A DNA stretch of 64,000 nt from Desulfurococcales archaeon (GTDB taxonomy: Archaea > Thermoproteota > Thermoprotei_A > Sulfolobales > Desulfurococcaceae). Of this stretch, positions 6,725-26,488 are shown one piece after another. The notes beneath the pieces were generated by a model. The model was not told the origin of the DNA, did not search any database, and saw only the letters and a program-made list of their open reading frames with translations. Made by a program: the position numbers and the translations under genes. The stretch lies in the NCBI GenBank assembly GCA_027022365.1, contig JALVYU010000031.1, forward strand, positions 310,001 through 374,000, written 5' to 3'. How positions within the stretch are numbered: position 1 is the stretch's first letter; the number at the start of each line of letters is the position of its first letter.

Positions 6725-7411
6725 TCATCTGTAACATGTTTTTATCCATTGAACGCACCTCAGGCAAGGATCAGGTTCTCCCGCCAGTACGCCGTCCTCG
6801 AAGCATCTAACGTCATCCCTGTTGTTGATATTATAGAGACTCAGTTTTACGAGGTCTGGATAATCATCGATCAATAAGATCTTAGCGCCGGGAACCAAGC
6901 GAACGGCCTGGGAAAGACTCCTGATCCCGCGTAGGTATAGTTTACGGAGATAGCTTTCGGCCCCCCTAGAATAGTATCCATGCAGTGGCTCGAGGAAACC
7001 ATTCCTCCATCCAGGCAAAACTATGGAGAACCCTTGCAGAGCGGTATTGAGGATCTCAGATACTAGTTCCATGCGTACACACGGCATATCCCCGCCGAAA
7101 ACCATTATCTGGTCGTAAAGCTCCAGTGCCTTCAGAATACCCGTGATAGGGCCTCCGAGCAGGTTATCAACGTGTATTTTCGAGGAAATCTTGGCCCGTG
7201 ATAGCTTCTCAGCATTCGTCTTAGAAGCGATAATGACTGGTTCTCTACCAAATATCTTCTCAACGTTCTCGCATGTATATTTTATCAATGGTTTTTCAGC
7301 TATTCTATAAAATAATTTGTCTCCGTCGAATCTCCTGGATGAACCACCTGCGAGAATAATTGGAATCAAGTCTTTAAATATATCATTTGTTATATCGTTA
7401 TCGTCTTCCAC
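6725..7411 (-). CDS. mobA: MobA-like molybdopterin guanylyltransferase
   Basis: 228-residue nucleotidyltransferase. The GTP-binding signature ILAGGSSRRFDGDK is at about 19-32, and the metal-binding GDMPCV is near 99-104. These are diagnostic of the MobA/IspD-like fold, and MobA attaches GMP to molybdopterin to make the dinucleotide cofactor used by FdhA-type enzymes. The C-terminus carries an extra cysteine-bearing tail (CFEDG, DPCLRCVQW, CYR), not a standard MobA element, which might bind metal. The gene is convergent with fdhA, only 34 bases from its stop, which supports a cofactor role. MobA-like enzymes acting on other substrates (e.g. cytidylyl transfer) cannot be excluded. Confidence 0.8.
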   Translation of the reverse strand: MEDDNDITNDIFKDLIPIILAGGSSRRFDGDKLFYRIAEKPLIKYTCENVEKIFGREPVIIASKTNAEKLSRAKISSKIHVDNLLGGPITGILKALELYDQIMVFGGDMPCVRMELVSEILNTALQGFSIVLPGWRNGFLEPLHGYYSRGAESYLRKLYLRGIRSLSQAVRLVPGAKILLIDDYPDLVKLSLYNINNRDDVRCFEDGVLAGEPDPCLRCVQWIKTCYR

Positions 7412-7553
7412 TGTCTTTCCCTATAAGAATTAGTACGAAAACCACGTATTAGGATAGGGGTTATTTAAAATTATGAAAGAGTGTTCACAAGATCCTGTAA
7501 CAAACACGTTCAATTCCAATAGCACATGATTACGAAAAAACCTTGTCCTCGTC

Positions 7554-8996
7554 CTAGCCGAAATGCTTCTTCATTTCCTCGTTACCCGGCATATTAAGGA
7601 GATCGTCTATGGTCTCTTGTACCTGTCTTGTAGACTTTGTACGTGGATCCATGTGTAGCCAGTCCTCGAGTATCTCCCTCCCGCCCTCCAGGAAAGCTGT
7701 GAGGGCCATCTCCATCCTGGTCATTCTAGGCAGTAGGACTAGATCCCTGATCTTCTTGGGTAGGGGCTCGAATATATAGCGGTGCAGGCCCTTCCCATCG
7801 ATCTGCACGGGCATCTCTACCGCTACATTATCGGGTATTCCCGGTATGCTGCCCAGGTTTAATGTGTTGACAATGTATTCATCCCTCCTATTATTGGCTA
7901 TGCTGTCTATGATTGGCACGATTGATTCGCCGCTCCACTCCGGCGGTATATGTACGGCGAGCGGGTGCTTCTGATCCCTGAGGGCTTCGTATAGTCTTTG
8001 TAGCTGCATGTTTAGATAGGCGATATACATCATCCACCCTATCTCTGAGTCAGGCCCTCCTGTCGAGCCGTACCATTTCTGTTTCGTCTTGAGGTCCCAG
8101 TGGTACATCCACGTGCCTCCACGTACAGTGTCCCCTACGGGTAGGAGGCCGTACCTTTTATACATGTCTATGGCTGCTGGCGATAGATCTATATCGAACG
8201 GGTTTACCTGCGTCTCTCTCCAGCGTTCCCAGTACTTCTCGGCTTTTTCCTCGATCCACTTATCCAGTAATGGATAAGCGTCTTCGCTCTTGTACTTGAA
8301 TTTCGTCAGCCAGATCACATGGTTGAACCCTAGGACTTCGAACTCGGTTTCCTCGCGTGGTAGGCCGAGCTCCTTCATGACATTGTAGATGCCGTGGTAT
8401 CCATGGCATAGACCGATCATCTTTATCTTGACGTGTCTCTGGATCAGGGTTGTGAGCTCGAAGACGGGGTTAGCGACATTGATTAGCCAGGCATCGGGAG
8501 CGTATTCCTCGACATCCTTCGCTATGCTTAGGGCTAGTTTGAACTGGTAGTAACCCCAGATCGTGTGGTAGTCGCTTACCATGTTCCACTCAACACTATT
8601 TATACCACGGTAGTAGCCGTGGCGTTCACATATCTCTCTCATACGCTCATAGTACATGTGGCCGCCATACATGGCGGAGTTCACGACGAAGTCGGCGTCC
8701 TTTATCGCCTCGATGCGATCCGTTGTTAGTACGAATTCTAGGTCGGCATGTAGCTCTGAGGCGTATCGTTTGGCGAAGCTTGTTATTAGGTTGAGCCTCT
8801 CCCTGTTTATATCCATGAGGTAAACCCTGGCTCCATGGAGGCTCTTGGCAAGTATGAGGTCTATGATGATCCTCGAGCTCCATACAGCGCTTCCCGCGCC
8901 TATAAAGGCGATCTTGAGTCCCTTGCCCTTAGGCTCATCCTCCATAAGGGGTTTAAGCCTGTTCTTGTACTTCATGGAGGAACAACCCTTAACCAT
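7554..8996 (-). CDS. glycoside hydrolase family 4 (alpha-glucosidase/alpha-galactosidase-like)
   Basis: 480 residues, with the NAD(H)-binding Rossmann start KIAFIGAGSAVWS near 28-40. The GH4 signature follows: NVANPV and the metal-binding cysteine in CHGYHG near residue 195. GH4 enzymes use NAD+ and Mn2+ to cleave glycosides by an oxidation-elimination mechanism, and length and motifs fit the AglA-like branch that acts on unphosphorylated sugars. The first 25 residues are poor in family similarity; ATG at residue 8 is an alternative start. It lies alone, with an AT-rich promoter-like region above it (about 9035-9050). Exact sugar and anomeric specificity are not readable. Confidence 0.85.
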   Translation of the reverse strand: MVKGCSSMKYKNRLKPLMEDEPKGKGLKIAFIGAGSAVWSSRIIIDLILAKSLHGARVYLMDINRERLNLITSFAKRYASELHADLEFVLTTDRIEAIKDADFVVNSAMYGGHMYYERMREICERHGYYRGINSVEWNMVSDYHTIWGYYQFKLALSIAKDVEEYAPDAWLINVANPVFELTTLIQRHVKIKMIGLCHGYHGIYNVMKELGLPREETEFEVLGFNHVIWLTKFKYKSEDAYPLLDKWIEEKAEKYWERWRETQVNPFDIDLSPAAIDMYKRYGLLPVGDTVRGGTWMYHWDLKTKQKWYGSTGGPDSEIGWMMYIAYLNMQLQRLYEALRDQKHPLAVHIPPEWSGESIVPIIDSIANNRRDEYIVNTLNLGSIPGIPDNVAVEMPVQIDGKGLHRYIFEPLPKKIRDLVLLPRMTRMEMALTAFLEGGREILEDWLHMDPRTKSTRQVQETIDDLLNMPGNEEMKKHFG

Positions 8997-22288: not shown

Positions 22289-23138
22289 CTAATATACACC
22301 GATGAAGATCCCTAGCGCTGAAACCAGTGTGCCATAGACTGCTCTGGGAGACGGCTTTTCTCCAGCTATTACCCTAGAGAACATCCTGCCTAGGACGGGG
22401 CTTATGCTGGTTGCCAGCGCTGTTACCGCTACGCCAACTGTTTTCACCGCGTACAGGAATAGGGTCATGCCTATTCCGAAGCCCAGTCCCCCGGCTATGA
22501 ATCCTAGTATGAAGCCGTTCTTCGTGAAGACATAGGGTGTCTCCCTGTATGATACTGTTGCTAGGATTAGGAGAACTGTTAGGTTCCTGTAGAGGGCTAC
22601 TACTAGTGGTGCTCCGTAGCTGACGGCGAGTCTGCTCAGGGTGGCGCCCATTCCCCATGAGAGAGCTGCTGCTAGGGCTGCGGCTACACCGGCCTTGTTC
22701 AGCCTTTGTTTCTCGCCACTGTAGATCAAATATATTCCTGTCAGGGCGAGGACTGTGCCTATGACTAGTCTTGGACTAAGCTGTTCGTGGTAGAGTATGG
22801 CAGATAGTACTTGTGCTATGAATATATATGTATATCCTATTGAGACTGCGTTTCCTCCCCCTATTCTCTGTATGCTGTATATGTAGGATAGGTCGCCGAG
22901 CAGTGGCCCGAAAACAGCGCTGATCGCTATTACGAGGAGGCCTGCGGGGGGGAATACTTGGTGGTAGTGATGACGCTATAACCATTAACGCCAGTAAGAT
23001 GACGGCGTACATGCTGCGTGCATAGTTGATGATATAGAATGGTTTGTCGCGCCCATACCTGCTTATTATCCCTGGTGCGAGGCCCCAGATCGTGCCCGCC
23101 AGTAGTCCTGCCAGTACGCCTAGCACTATCGTTGTCAT
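22289..23138 (-). pseudogene. EamA/DMT family transporter, frameshifted
   Basis: Two frames together encode one ten-span drug/metabolite transporter of about 283 residues. The first half begins MTTIVLGVLAGLLAGTIWG at 23138; the second continues AGLLVIAISAVFGPLLGDL and runs through YLIYSGEKQ to the stop at 22289. They are joined at a run of seven G (22946-22952, seven C on the coding strand). Six C restores the frame exactly (IPPAGLLV). Either the gene is newly inactivated, the run slips during expression, or the base count is a sequencing error. It lies between the pteroate-like gene and the thiamine locus. Confidence 0.85.
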
Positions 23139-23258
23139 TTATAGTCTCGCTCCTCTAAGGATATTACCATGTTATAGCCTTGATTAAACAACTACCTAAT
23201 AAGCAACATTATCTCCGATGAGAGGAAGGAAAAGACATTATGATCCGGGCTTGTGGTG

Positions 23259-23930
23259 CTAGACGGGCCACTTCTCCATCCTGTAGGCCATGTCCCAGAA
23301 CATGTACTCGTACCTGCTACTGGTTCTGAAAATCCATTTCAGCCTCTCGATATCACTGTACCCGATGCCTATCTTGTCGACTGTTTTTATCAAGTCCTTT
23401 GTCAGCTCCCTGTACTCCTTTGACCTGTACGTCTCTATCCATTCACGGTATATCTTGTTCTTGTTCTCCTCTATGAGATCCTCTAGTTGCTCGGGAAGCC
23501 ACATGTATGTCCAGAAGCAGGGTAGTGTTGAGACAAGGCACTCGACCGGCTCTCCCAGACTACATATGCTTAGGACGTGGTTCACGTAGGCGAGAGTTGT
23601 TGGCGCGGGCTCGACGGCTCTGACCTGCTCGAGCGTCAGCCCGATCTCGCCTAGGTGTTTCTCGTAGTTCTCGAGCTCTATGGTCGCATCGCTGTAGGCC
23701 ATCCATAATGCTTTCCTGGTGAGCTCGTAGTCCCTTGTCTTGGCCGCTAATAGTGCGAAACTCCTTGTCATACCCACTAAGAAGTAATAGTCTTGGGCGA
23801 CATAATACCTGTACTTTTCCAGGGGGAGTGTTCCCCGGAATAGTTCCTGGACGAATGAATGGTTCTTTATTGCTTCCCAGATCCTCTTGGAATCCCTGTA
23901 GAGTAGGTTGTGTAGGGGCTCCTCTGCCAT
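23259..23930 (-). CDS. tenA: TenA family thiaminase II / aminopyrimidine aminohydrolase
   Basis: 223 residues, all helical. TenA hallmarks include FVQELFRGTLPLEKYRYYVA, QDYYFLVGMTRSFALLAAK and the catalytic cysteine region STLPCFWTYMWLP (about 132-144). TenA proteins salvage thiamine breakdown products by hydrolysing aminopyrimidines to hydroxymethylpyrimidine (HMP). The gene is four bases from the upstream transporter gene, so both are cotranscribed, and it lies opposite thi4. The set gives HMP salvage and uptake beside thiazole synthesis. Confidence 0.9.
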   Translation of the reverse strand: MAEEPLHNLLYRDSKRIWEAIKNHSFVQELFRGTLPLEKYRYYVAQDYYFLVGMTRSFALLAAKTRDYELTRKALWMAYSDATIELENYEKHLGEIGLTLEQVRAVEPAPTTLAYVNHVLSICSLGEPVECLVSTLPCFWTYMWLPEQLEDLIEENKNKIYREWIETYRSKEYRELTKDLIKTVDKIGIGYSDIERLKWIFRTSSRYEYMFWDMAYRMEKWPV

Positions 23931-23934
23931 GCTA

Positions 23935-24462
23935 TCATCTCCTGATAGCTTTCCCTACGGCGGCGGCTACTGCTCCATATACTGCTCCGCTGAACATTGC
24001 TGCTACTAGCCAGAACAGCATTACTGGTGGTGTAGCTATTTCTCCAAAGAGTATCGCGTCGAGTGCTACGCATGGGAATGCTGCGAATACTCCTGCTAGT
24101 GCACCTGCTAGTACTCCCCAGTTCTTATACCCTAGGAGGAGATAGGCCAGCTCGCTTGCAAGTCCCTGGGCTATACCGTATTCGAGGTTTGTGAATCCTC
24201 CCGCTGTAGGTATTATTGTCTCGATCAATGCTCCGAGGGTTTCTCCCAGGAACGCTGATCCCGGCTTCCTAATAAGAGTGGCTGCGAGGGGTGCCCCAAT
24301 ATACCATAACCCGTAGCTTATTGCTCTGGCCAGCACTGGTCCGCCGAGTGCTTTGCCGAAGTAGTAGACGTACCATGCTGAGTAGAACACTATTCCCGAT
24401 ACGACTGCTACTACGCCGAGTATAGCGTAATCAACCGTTGTGTATCTCGTTCTGCCCACCAT
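23935..24462 (-). CDS. YkoE-like thiamine/HMP transporter membrane component
   Basis: About 175 residues with five or six membrane segments. Motifs GSAFLGETLGALIETIIP and FTNLEYGIAQGLASELAYL resemble the YkoE membrane component of ECF-type transporters linked to HMP or thiamine uptake. Position next to tenA and opposite thi4 supports a thiamine-precursor role; no energising ATPase is adjacent. An ATG at 24474 adds four residues, but the sequence between gives GGTGATAAAA immediately before the ATG at 24462, so I prefer the latter. Confidence 0.78.
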   Translation of the reverse strand: MVGRTRYTTVDYAILGVVAVVSGIVFYSAWYVYYFGKALGGPVLARAISYGLWYIGAPLAATLIRKPGSAFLGETLGALIETIIPTAGGFTNLEYGIAQGLASELAYLLLGYKNWGVLAGALAGVFAAFPCVALDAILFGEIATPPVMLFWLVAAMFSGAVYGAVAAAVGKAIRR

Positions 24463-24474
24463 TTTTATCACCAT

Positions 24475-24494
24475 GTTATCTATCCCTAGATAAC
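24475..24494. promoter_or_regulatory. perfect palindrome, candidate thiamine operator
   Basis: GTTATCTA-TCCC-TAGATAAC: two perfect 8-base arms around four bases, in the 75-87 base gap between the divergent YkoE-like/tenA operon and thi4. For the leftward operon it lies between a TATA-like TTTATTAC (about 24498-24508) and the start codon, so binding would block transcription start; for thi4 it lies about 30 bases above the TATA box. Archaeal thiamine genes are known to be controlled by dedicated repressors; the identity of the binding protein here is inference. Confidence 0.65.
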
Positions 24495-24520
24495 CAGGTA
24501 ATAAATGTTTTAATAACCCA

Positions 24521-24530
24521 GTAAATATAC
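24521..24530 (+). promoter_or_regulatory. TATA box for thi4
   Basis: GTAAATATAC centred about 24 bases before the thi4 ATG at 24550, which predicts a leaderless mRNA starting at or next to the start codon. Confidence 0.6.
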
Positions 24531-24549
24531 TGAGACCCCGGGAGAGAAC

Positions 24550-25362
24550 ATGAGCTTCTTCCCCGAAACACTCAAGAGCCTGGACGAGGCCGACCTAGCT
24601 AGGAGAATAATAGATGCAGCGCATGACAGGCTATGGGATATCGCTGAGACGGACGTAGTGGTCGTGGGCGCCGGCCCAGCAGGCCTTACGGCGGCCTACT
24701 ACCTCGCAAAGAAGGGCGTCAGAGTACTTGTTCTCGAGAGGATGCTGGGCGTCGGCGGCGGGATAAGAGGCGGCTCGATGCTCCTGCCAGTAGCACTCGT
24801 CGAGGAGGGCGAGGCCCTTAAGATAGTCGAGGAAGTAGGGGCCCATACAAGGGGACTCGGAGAAGGAGTCTACGCTGTAGATCCCACGGAGCTAATGCTA
24901 AGAATAGCTGTCAGAGCAATAGACCACGGCGCAGTAATATGGCCCGGCGTACACGTGGAAGACCTGATAACGAGGGGAGAAGACAGTGCCTTGCGGGTAA
25001 CAGGAGTACTGATAAACTGGACGGTAGTCTACGAGTCAGGGTGGCACGTGGATCCACTCTATATATGGAGCAAAGCAGTGGTAGACGCGACAGGCCACGA
25101 CGCCTACATAGTGAAGATCCTGGCAGAGAGGCATCCGGAGCTCAGCCTCCTAGTACCTGGGATGCAGAGCCAGGACGTCTGGCGCGGCGAAGAAGAAGTA
25201 GTTGAGAAAACAGGACGGGTAATCCCCGGCCTATACGTAGCAGGAATGGCGGTAGCGGAGCTGTACAACACGCCGAGAATGGGCCCGATAATCGGGGGAA
25301 TGCTTGTCTCAGGCAAGAAAGTAGCAGATCTTATAACTGATGATTTGTCCAAGAATCCCTAA
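24550..25362 (+). CDS. thi4: thiamine thiazole synthase, Thi4 family (cysteine-free)
   Basis: 270 residues. The dinucleotide-binding start DVVVVGAGPAGLTAAYYLAK (about 35-54), the LERMLGVGGGIRGGSM segment, ATGHDAYIV (about 180-188) and the C-terminal GLYVAGMAVAELYNTPRMGP identify Thi4. The enzyme builds the thiazole of thiamine from an ADP-ribose derivative and glycine. Yeast-type Thi4 donates sulfur from its own cysteine and dies after one turnover. This protein contains no cysteine at all, so it must use external sulfide and be catalytic, as described for methanogen Thi4. Some family members instead make ribose-1,5-bisphosphate products, but the thiamine context supports thiazole synthesis. 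Confidence 0.93.
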   Translation: MSFFPETLKSLDEADLARRIIDAAHDRLWDIAETDVVVVGAGPAGLTAAYYLAKKGVRVLVLERMLGVGGGIRGGSMLLPVALVEEGEALKIVEEVGAHTRGLGEGVYAVDPTELMLRIAVRAIDHGAVIWPGVHVEDLITRGEDSALRVTGVLINWTVVYESGWHVDPLYIWSKAVVDATGHDAYIVKILAERHPELSLLVPGMQSQDVWRGEEEVVEKTGRVIPGLYVAGMAVAELYNTPRMGPIIGGMLVSGKKVADLITDDLSKNP

Positions 25363-25561
25363 AACATAGTATTACAAGCCTTCTGAAGATGAAGAAATAC
25401 AGGCACGTTCAATGTGTCTCTCCAGCATTCCTTCAAGGACCTACAGTGAATAGCCTTTGTTTCATTCTTATGATATGTGTTTTCGAGATATGAACATCAT
25501 GTTTATATATTCGTTGATTAAAATTAGTTTTTCTCTGACATAGGTACTTCCTCGCGATTCA

Positions 25562-26488
25562 ATGGTGTATGTCATGTTTACGGTAGAGAATATAACACGA
25601 TATTTTGGCAGGTTTAAGGCGCTAGACAATGTTAGTTTTAAGGTTGATAACGGAGAGATTGTCGGATACGTCGGCTTGAATGGCGCTGGTAAAACAACCA
25701 CTATTAGGATTTGCGTCGGCGTTCTCCGCCCTTCCAGCGGCGATGTAGTCGTTGATGGCTACTCGATCACTAGGCAGAAACGCGAGGCCAGCTTCCACAT
25801 AGGCTGGGTGCCCGAGCTACCTATTTTCGAGCTCGACGAGAAGGCTATCGACTACTTTGTCTACCTGGCCGGATACTACGGCTTGTCCAGGAGCGAGGCG
25901 CGCAGGCTTGGGAAGGAGCTTTTCGAGCAAGTAGGGCTGTCTAGGTTCATGGAGCGCAGACTCAAACACTACAGCCTAGGCATGAAGAAGCGTTTTGCCC
26001 TGGCGGTGTCGATGATTAATGATCCACGCAACTTCTTCTTCGACGAGGTCTTGAACGGCCTCGACCCTAAGGGAATAGCTTTCTTCAGGGATCTGGTGAA
26101 GCGGTTTAAGCGTGAAGGCAGGGCAGTGCTGTTTTCAAGCCATATACTGAGCGAGGTTGAGAACATAGCCGACAAGGTTGTATTCATCCACAAGGGCAGG
26201 ATCATCGCCGTCAAGACCATGGATGAGATCAAGAGCATGGTTAAACCCGCCCTGGTCGTGAAGGTATCTAATCCTGACGACAAGCTACCAAAGATCCTAG
26301 AGAAGTACGGGGAGGTCAGAGCCAGGGACGGGAAATACATCTTAGTGTTCAAGGAGAAGCCGGACAAAAACCAGATAGTCAAGGAGCTCGTTGAGAACGG
26401 CTATAGCGTCGAGGAGATCAGGCCAGCCAGGACCAGTCTCGAGAAAGTATTCTTCAAACTAATAGGCGAGGCGGGGGAGGAGCGGTGA
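25562..26488 (+). CDS. ABC transporter ATP-binding protein
   Basis: 308 residues. Walker A GLNGAGKTT at 38-46, signature YSLGMKKRF near 138, Walker B NFFFDEVLNGLDP (the usual DEP is DEV, catalytic glutamate kept), H-loop SSHIL and a C-terminal extension of about 80 residues as in ABC-2 exporters. It overlaps the next gene by four bases (GTGA) and powers that unusual permease. ATG at 25574 preceded by GGTG is an alternative start. Confidence 0.9.
   Translation: MVYVMFTVENITRYFGRFKALDNVSFKVDNGEIVGYVGLNGAGKTTTIRICVGVLRPSSGDVVVDGYSITRQKREASFHIGWVPELPIFELDEKAIDYFVYLAGYYGLSRSEARRLGKELFEQVGLSRFMERRLKHYSLGMKKRFALAVSMINDPRNFFFDEVLNGLDPKGIAFFRDLVKRFKREGRAVLFSSHILSEVENIADKVVFIHKGRIIAVKTMDEIKSMVKPALVVKVSNPDDKLPKILEKYGEVRARDGKYILVFKEKPDKNQIVKELVENGYSVEEIRPARTSLEKVFFKLIGEAGEER

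Follow-up and report, generated by a model that had tools for sequence, protein, structure and literature searches.

What controls the divergently transcribed thiamine genes ykoE-tenA and thi4 of this Desulfurococcales archaeon, and could a single palindrome in the spacer between them act in both directions? An earlier note on this DNA, a stretch of 64,000 nucleotides referred to below as the window, had proposed that uptake, salvage and the synthesis of thiazole are all under a single repressor site. The site was analyzed in the window, in the remainder of the genome and in related archaea. The palindrome is highly likely to be the core of an operator for the thiamine regulator ThiR, through which ThiR would repress transcription in both directions by means of a three-unit array with a 23-bp period.

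The divergent locus and its core palindrome

The 8+4+8 palindrome was present letter for letter as noted, the 20-mer between ykoE-tenA and thi4 reading GTTATCTATCCCTAGATAAC (Table 1). The identities given for the neighbouring genes agreed with Pfam and NCBIfam, with a YkoE-family S component and TenA encoded leftward and Thi4 rightward. TenA scored 146 bits against the NCBIfam thiaminase II model (cut-off 130) and Thi4 262 bits against TIGR00292 (cut-off 148). The palindrome had been described as lying exactly between the YkoE-like/tenA operon and thi4; it does lie in the spacer but not midway, since it abuts the ATG of the leftward operon (24474) and stands 55 bp before the ATG of thi4. On the minus strand at 22289-23138, an EamA-type transporter appears to be divided over two frames (ORFs 22776-23138 and 22289-22729) close to a G run at about 22945, representing either a sequencing error or a pseudogene.

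Table 1. Features of the divergent thi4/ykoE-tenA locus, with positions in the window
Feature	Position	Strand	Evidence and remarks
tenA, aminopyrimidine/thiamine salvage hydrolase (223 aa)	23259..23930	-	PF03070, 1.4e-43; TIGR04306 above cut-off
ykoE-like S component of ECF transporter (179 aa)	23935..24474	-	PF09819, 3e-31
Composite four-half-site operator, ATCACC-nn-GTTATC-nA-n4-Tn-GATAAC-nn-GGTAAT	24467..24502	none	24/26 consensus positions, best in the 64-kb window
Core palindrome GTTATCTA-TCCC-TAGATAAC	24475..24494	none	Read directly in the sequence; fits core GTTATCNANNNNTNGATAAC
Second, weaker operator register	24490..24525	none	20/26, second best in the window; overlaps the first by one unit and covers the likely thi4 TATA box
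TATA-like element TTTATTA of the ykoE-tenA operon (putative)	24499..24505	-	ATG about 26 bp downstream; an outer half-site overlaps the element
Likely thi4 TATA box TTTTAATAA (putative)	24510..24518	+	Invariant in three same-genus genomes
thi4 TATA box proposed in the earlier note, GTAAATATA; less likely	24521..24529	+	Position 24526 differs in all three same-genus genomes (T/G/A)
thi4, ADP-thiazole synthase (270 aa)	24550..25362	+	PF01946, 3e-63; TIGR00292 above cut-off

The window contains four perfect 8+4+8 palindromes, compared with a mean of 1.1 and a maximum of 4 in 60 dinucleotide shuffles, and symmetry alone is therefore weak evidence of function. The perfect palindrome CTTATCCAGTAATGGATAAG at 8259-8278, inside a 480-aa coding frame, was taken as a chance occurrence. 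When the palindrome sequence itself was searched for, a single place was found in the window even when as many as 3 of the 16 arm bases were allowed to differ. The search of the whole 1.74-Mb genome for the 20-base motif, which the note had recommended, gave one perfect place and two places with 2 arm mismatches, and one of the latter precedes the thiD-thiN fusion gene (thiDN), the first sign of a regulon.

A true thi4 was present in three of the six same-genus genomes searched (G000, the genome under study, G002 and G005), and the palindrome was identical in all three. This identity is weak evidence on its own because the genomes are close relatives, their Thi4 proteins being 91-96% identical. 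The divergent thi4/ykoE-tenA order was kept in genus g1, in genus g3 (G025 and G070) and in G015, which belongs to another family. The strict palindrome was absent from the divergent spacers of g3 and of G015 (L208/L275).

A composite operator-like site and a possible three-unit array

Alignment of the sites revealed conserved half-sites outside the core. Their positions were evaluated after excluding the hits in G035 and G153 (92-116 bp before the start, probably chance), the Thi4 rows (which are ykoE's site again), sites scoring below 11/14 and ThiDN hits below 200 bits (ThiR paralogues); 30 sites were left, of which 15 were kept, a single site for each gene in each genus, covering nine genera. 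ATAACC stood at a fixed offset to the left in 14 of the 15 sites and GGTTAT at a fixed offset to the right likewise in 14 (at least 4 of 6 bases); the remaining offsets that were compared gave 0-4 of 15. A at -4 and its mirror counterpart, T at 25, were invariant in the 15 sites. The resulting 36-bp dyad consensus is ATAACC-nn-GTTATC-nA-n4-Tn-GATAAC-nn-GGTTAT, with the palindrome as its core. Apart from the two registers in the divergent spacer, all scores of this 36-mer in the window were at or below 16. Among the other divergent spacers, a weaker version was kept in g3 (20/26), and none in G015 (14/26).

The spacer can also be read as 15-bp units of the form GATAACC-n-GGTTATC, located 23 bp apart at 24466-24480 (11/14), 24489-24503 (12/14) and 24512-24526 (9/14). 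The third unit is weak, with p = 0.0026 at the 23-bp offset and 0.078 at any offset. The g3 spacer likewise has three units, at distances of 21 and 23 bp.

On the leftward side, the TATA element that the note had assigned to this operon could be located as the TATA-like TTTATTA. The elements follow in the order TTTATTA-ccTG-core-ATG, with the upstream outer half-site overlapping the TATA-like element and the downstream one the start codon. The same order of elements is repeated at ecfA, thiDN and thiB. On the rightward side, the TATA box suggested near 24521 has a likelier competitor: TTTTAATAA is favoured over GTAAATATA because the former is invariant and has a match, TTTAATAAC, at the corresponding spacer position in L208 from another family, whereas the latter varies among the three same-genus genomes. 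The palindrome ends 15 bp before this likely thi4 TATA box, which is covered by the second register alone, the main operator being upstream. Operator and core promoter overlap clearly at ykoE; at thi4 they would do so only through the weak second register.

Distribution of the operator among related genomes

The pattern GTTATC-N8-GATAAC was searched for in 197 genomes of the order and matched at 42 places in 34 genomes. Places having A8 together with T13 stood at thiamine genes; many of the others stood at tungstate/molybdate transport genes. Neighbouring genes, including the non-thiamine ones, were compared at all but eight of the 42 places (those eight being in G071, G123 twice, G083, G008 and the second places in G183, G182 and G065).

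When 229 genomes of the class were searched, the strict core GTTATCNANNNNTNGATAAC was found at 11 places in 8 genomes, all of a single family, and the reversed pattern at 2 places. All 11 places are at thi genes, namely 3 thi4/ykoE spacers, 5 thiDN genes (47 bp before the start) and 3 genes for thiB-like transporters (34-35 bp upstream of the start), indicating that the core is kept at thi genes and is not widespread at unrelated ones. The core had been refined to A at 8 and T at 13 after it was seen which sites stood at thi genes, and for this reason it was tested on material outside its making.

Upstream of ecfA the core was detected in 16 of 20 genomes at p <= 0.03 (all except G015, G122, G128 and G176), two of these matches (G035 and G153) lying 92-110 bp before the start and possibly due to chance. 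It was also detected upstream of thiDN in 6 of 8 genomes (missing in G015 and G134; ThiDN hits below 200 bits were dropped here too), of thiB in 3 of 3 and of thi4 in 3 of 6 (missing in G015, G025 and G070). For ykoE, 8 of 21 genomes reached p <= 0.02 and 13 did not. No core was found upstream of the operon-internal ecfT in any of 20 genomes or upstream of tenA in any of 6.

With the 36-mer, 17 of the 30 ykoE genes of the order passed at p <= 0.02. Outside family f1, where the loci had no part in the consensus, 9 of 16 passed at the same level (f2, 5/8; f9, 3/3; f4, 1/1; f5, 0/2; f6, 0/1; f10, 0/1). The composite site recurs within the family, in nine genera, at ecfA, thiDN, thiB and ykoE, and beyond the family at ykoE. 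Upstream of thi4 in Metallosphaera yellowstonensis, no such site was seen by eye.

Other sites in the same genome

The genome under study carries the operator also 47 bp before thiDN, and GTTATCCAAGTAATAATAAC is located 3 bp before the start codon of ecfA. The extent of the regulon is thus wider than had been noted, as thiDN and a separately encoded ECF module have the same kind of site. This module consists of a fused double ATPase (two ABC_tran stretches) followed by CbiQ/EcfT, the latter being the sole CbiQ-type match found in the genome. The double ATPase and EcfT genes (L220:2265-4467; C31:452.3-454.5 kb) lie apart from ykoE yet with ykoE's type of operator.

Two further sites were rejected. 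The site at C26:255881, with 1 mismatch to the core, was ascribed to chance, having no thi gene nearby and a best composite score of 16/26. At C31:444032 (L142:6033-6052), the fully symmetric 20-mer GTTATCGGAGCTCCGATAAC lies 72 bp upstream of an ORF of 187 aa to which no Pfam family could be assigned; it does not fit the strict core and was not accepted as a thiamine site.

No thiC was found in the genome (G000), though thi4, thiDN, tenA and ykoE are present; the ThiC model detected the gene in 13 of 14 control genomes. The pyrimidine must therefore come from outside, by way of YkoE, the ECF module and TenA, and the organism probably makes thiamine from imported pyrimidine and its own thiazole.

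The probable regulator, ThiR

Two genes with a ThiN domain were identified in the genome, thiDN and a gene for a 297-aa HTH-ThiN protein (L006:1483-2373, minus strand; C31, about 17.5 kb). In the latter, PF10120 matched residues 137-290 (1.8e-44) as the sole Pfam family at E <= 0.001, and the ThiD kinase domain is lacking. In a structure model built with an alignment of 33 relatives (pLDDT 91.8), the N-terminal part forms an HTH and the C-terminal part a ThiN fold, the predicted HTH helices being at residues 33-40 and 44-51 (pLDDT about 94). Pfam HTH matches among the 33 members were weak (HTH_37 in 18, best 0.00074; HTH_3 in 16; HTH_23 in 15; overall best 0.00068). When the whole model was compared with the PDB, the matches were all filled by the ThiN part, which aligned with 2php over 167 residues (Z 23.1, rmsd 2.2) and also matched 2pb9 (Z 23).

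Of the family's 40 genomes, 39 have ThiN. In 6 of 30 ykoE loci (L194, L196, L203, L207, L212 and L213, from f2 and f9) the HTH-ThiN gene adjoins ykoE, and the composite site is found upstream of ykoE in all six. The note had mentioned dedicated regulators of archaeal thiamine genes while leaving the one at this locus unnamed; by gene content and co-occurrence it is very probably ThiR. ThiR is a known HTH-ThiN regulator of archaeal thiamine genes with palindromic operators at thi genes, and its DNA binding is described as responding to thiamine phosphates.

No good site was found at the promoter of ThiR itself (core, 0/3), and autoregulation was rejected, the best upstream score in a longer list of ThiR genes examined being 11/14. 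The putative recognition helix (residues 44-49) contains QPQ in g1, g3, g7, g9 and g13; most other genera have QPM or QPL there. Variants of this helix perhaps track variants of the operator.

Proposed mechanism and alternative explanations

The sequences establish the sites with their positions and conservation, the genes and the presence of a ThiR gene; from these we infer that ThiR is the binder, that it represses rather than activates, that its ligand is a thiamine phosphate and that it has a role at thi4. ThiR would bind a series of 15-bp units, GATAACC-n-GGTTATC, at 23-bp spacing, a dimer occupying either the 15-bp unit or the 20-bp core. In a normal operator, made of two units, the upstream one would cover the TATA box and the downstream one the transcription start or start codon, hiding both elements at ykoE-tenA, thiDN and ecfA-ecfT. 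In the divergent spacer a third unit would sit over the thi4 TATA box, and one array could then close both promoters. With thiamine phosphates in good supply, ThiR loaded with a thiamine phosphate would bind the array; when they are scarce it would leave, allowing import of the pyrimidine by YkoE and the ECF module, salvage by TenA, synthesis of the thiazole by Thi4 and joining of the two moieties by ThiDN. The idea of one repressor site for all three functions has good support at ykoE-tenA, where the site is between the TATA element and the start codon, but less at thi4, where the palindrome is upstream of the TATA box; control of thi4 probably uses the second, overlapping operator. In its most detailed form for this order, with two units per promoter (at TATA box and start site), three units at thi4/ykoE of which the middle one serves both sides, and ThiR as a cooperative oligomeric repressor on the 15-bp, 23-bp-period array, the scheme is put forward tentatively, as somewhat less likely than not to hold. 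If the shared unit is real, the switch would couple thiazole synthesis to pyrimidine salvage.

The position of the palindrome upstream of the thi4 TATA box, the weakness of the thi4-side unit and the thi4 spacers of g3 and G015, which lack the strict core, would also be expected if ThiR bound the site to control the ykoE-tenA side only, with thi4 constitutive or activated from the site. Such one-sided control appears rather unlikely, however, as the divergent gene order is kept in g1, g3 and G015, and as the second register (20/26) covers the thi4 TATA box with the same three-unit layout in g3. Since ThiR was assigned from co-occurrence and gene content, a different regulator might occupy the site; this is improbable given that the genome has one HTH-ThiN protein, that nearly every genome of the family has ThiN, and that in six loci the composite site is accompanied by an HTH-ThiN gene adjoining ykoE.

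Membership in a tungstate/molybdate (ModE-like) regulon was considered because similar palindromes occur in the order. Those at TupA, WtpA or ModE-like genes (L116, L120, L133 and L140, each at 1501-1520, and L150 at 7396-7415) show GTTATC-N8-GATAAC without A8 together with T13; they are a candidate tungstate/molybdate operator with a half-site nearly that of the thiamine operator. No such gene accompanies any of the 11 strict-core places, and this assignment was rejected on inner bases and gene content as very unlikely. Also very unlikely is a role of the palindrome at the RNA level, whether as riboswitch, attenuator or hairpin, or its origin by chance: about one perfect 8+4+8 palindrome is expected per window, but the site is conserved at several genes with fixed offsets, and it directly adjoins the start codon of the leftward operon and precedes any transcript that begins at that codon. 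A TPP riboswitch or other known RNA was rejected, as Rfam gave no match in 23000-25600 even at E <= 1. Repression by ThiR from the three-unit array is the reading we prefer; in these heat-loving archaea the sensor ThiR very probably uses the switch to regulate genes for the uptake and synthesis of vitamin B1.

A locus formerly without either now has a named regulator and a predictive operator, and three separate operons of one genome are joined in a B1 regulon that takes in the ECF module needed by the S component. This suggests how an archaeon without ThiC coordinates salvage with thiazole synthesis. An exact footprint prediction follows, for whose test a single purified protein would suffice.

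Comparison with known systems

The YkoEDC-type ECF transporter handles the pyrimidine part of thiamine. The genome described here likewise encodes an S component of the YkoE family, a double ATPase in fused form and a CbiQ/EcfT subunit. It differs in that this genus has the S component and the ATPase-T module at two loci apart from each other, both with an operator of this kind, whereas in g3 and several other genera of the family they are close together. ModE-type molybdate/tungstate operators are similar in half-site (GTTATC) and spacing at the tungstate genes of the order; the thiamine site differs from them in the inner bases and in the genes served.

The ThiR-operator family of switches is already known (Rodionov et al. 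2017, J Bacteriol 199:e00743-16, as listed among the references of PMC10746257; Hwang et al. 2017, J Bacteriol 199:e00810-16, on ThiR, as listed among those of PMC12029414). No description of the four-half-site or array architecture was found in the literature searched, the main ThiR paper (Rodionov et al. 2017) lying outside it. Likeness to the ThiR system is seen in the HTH-ThiN make-up, the gene content of the regulon and the palindromic operators at thi genes, and the difference consists of the 36-bp operator with four half-sites and the three-unit array in the divergent locus. The four-half-site form, the 23-bp array, the shared middle unit and the spread across the group may be new detail within a known family.
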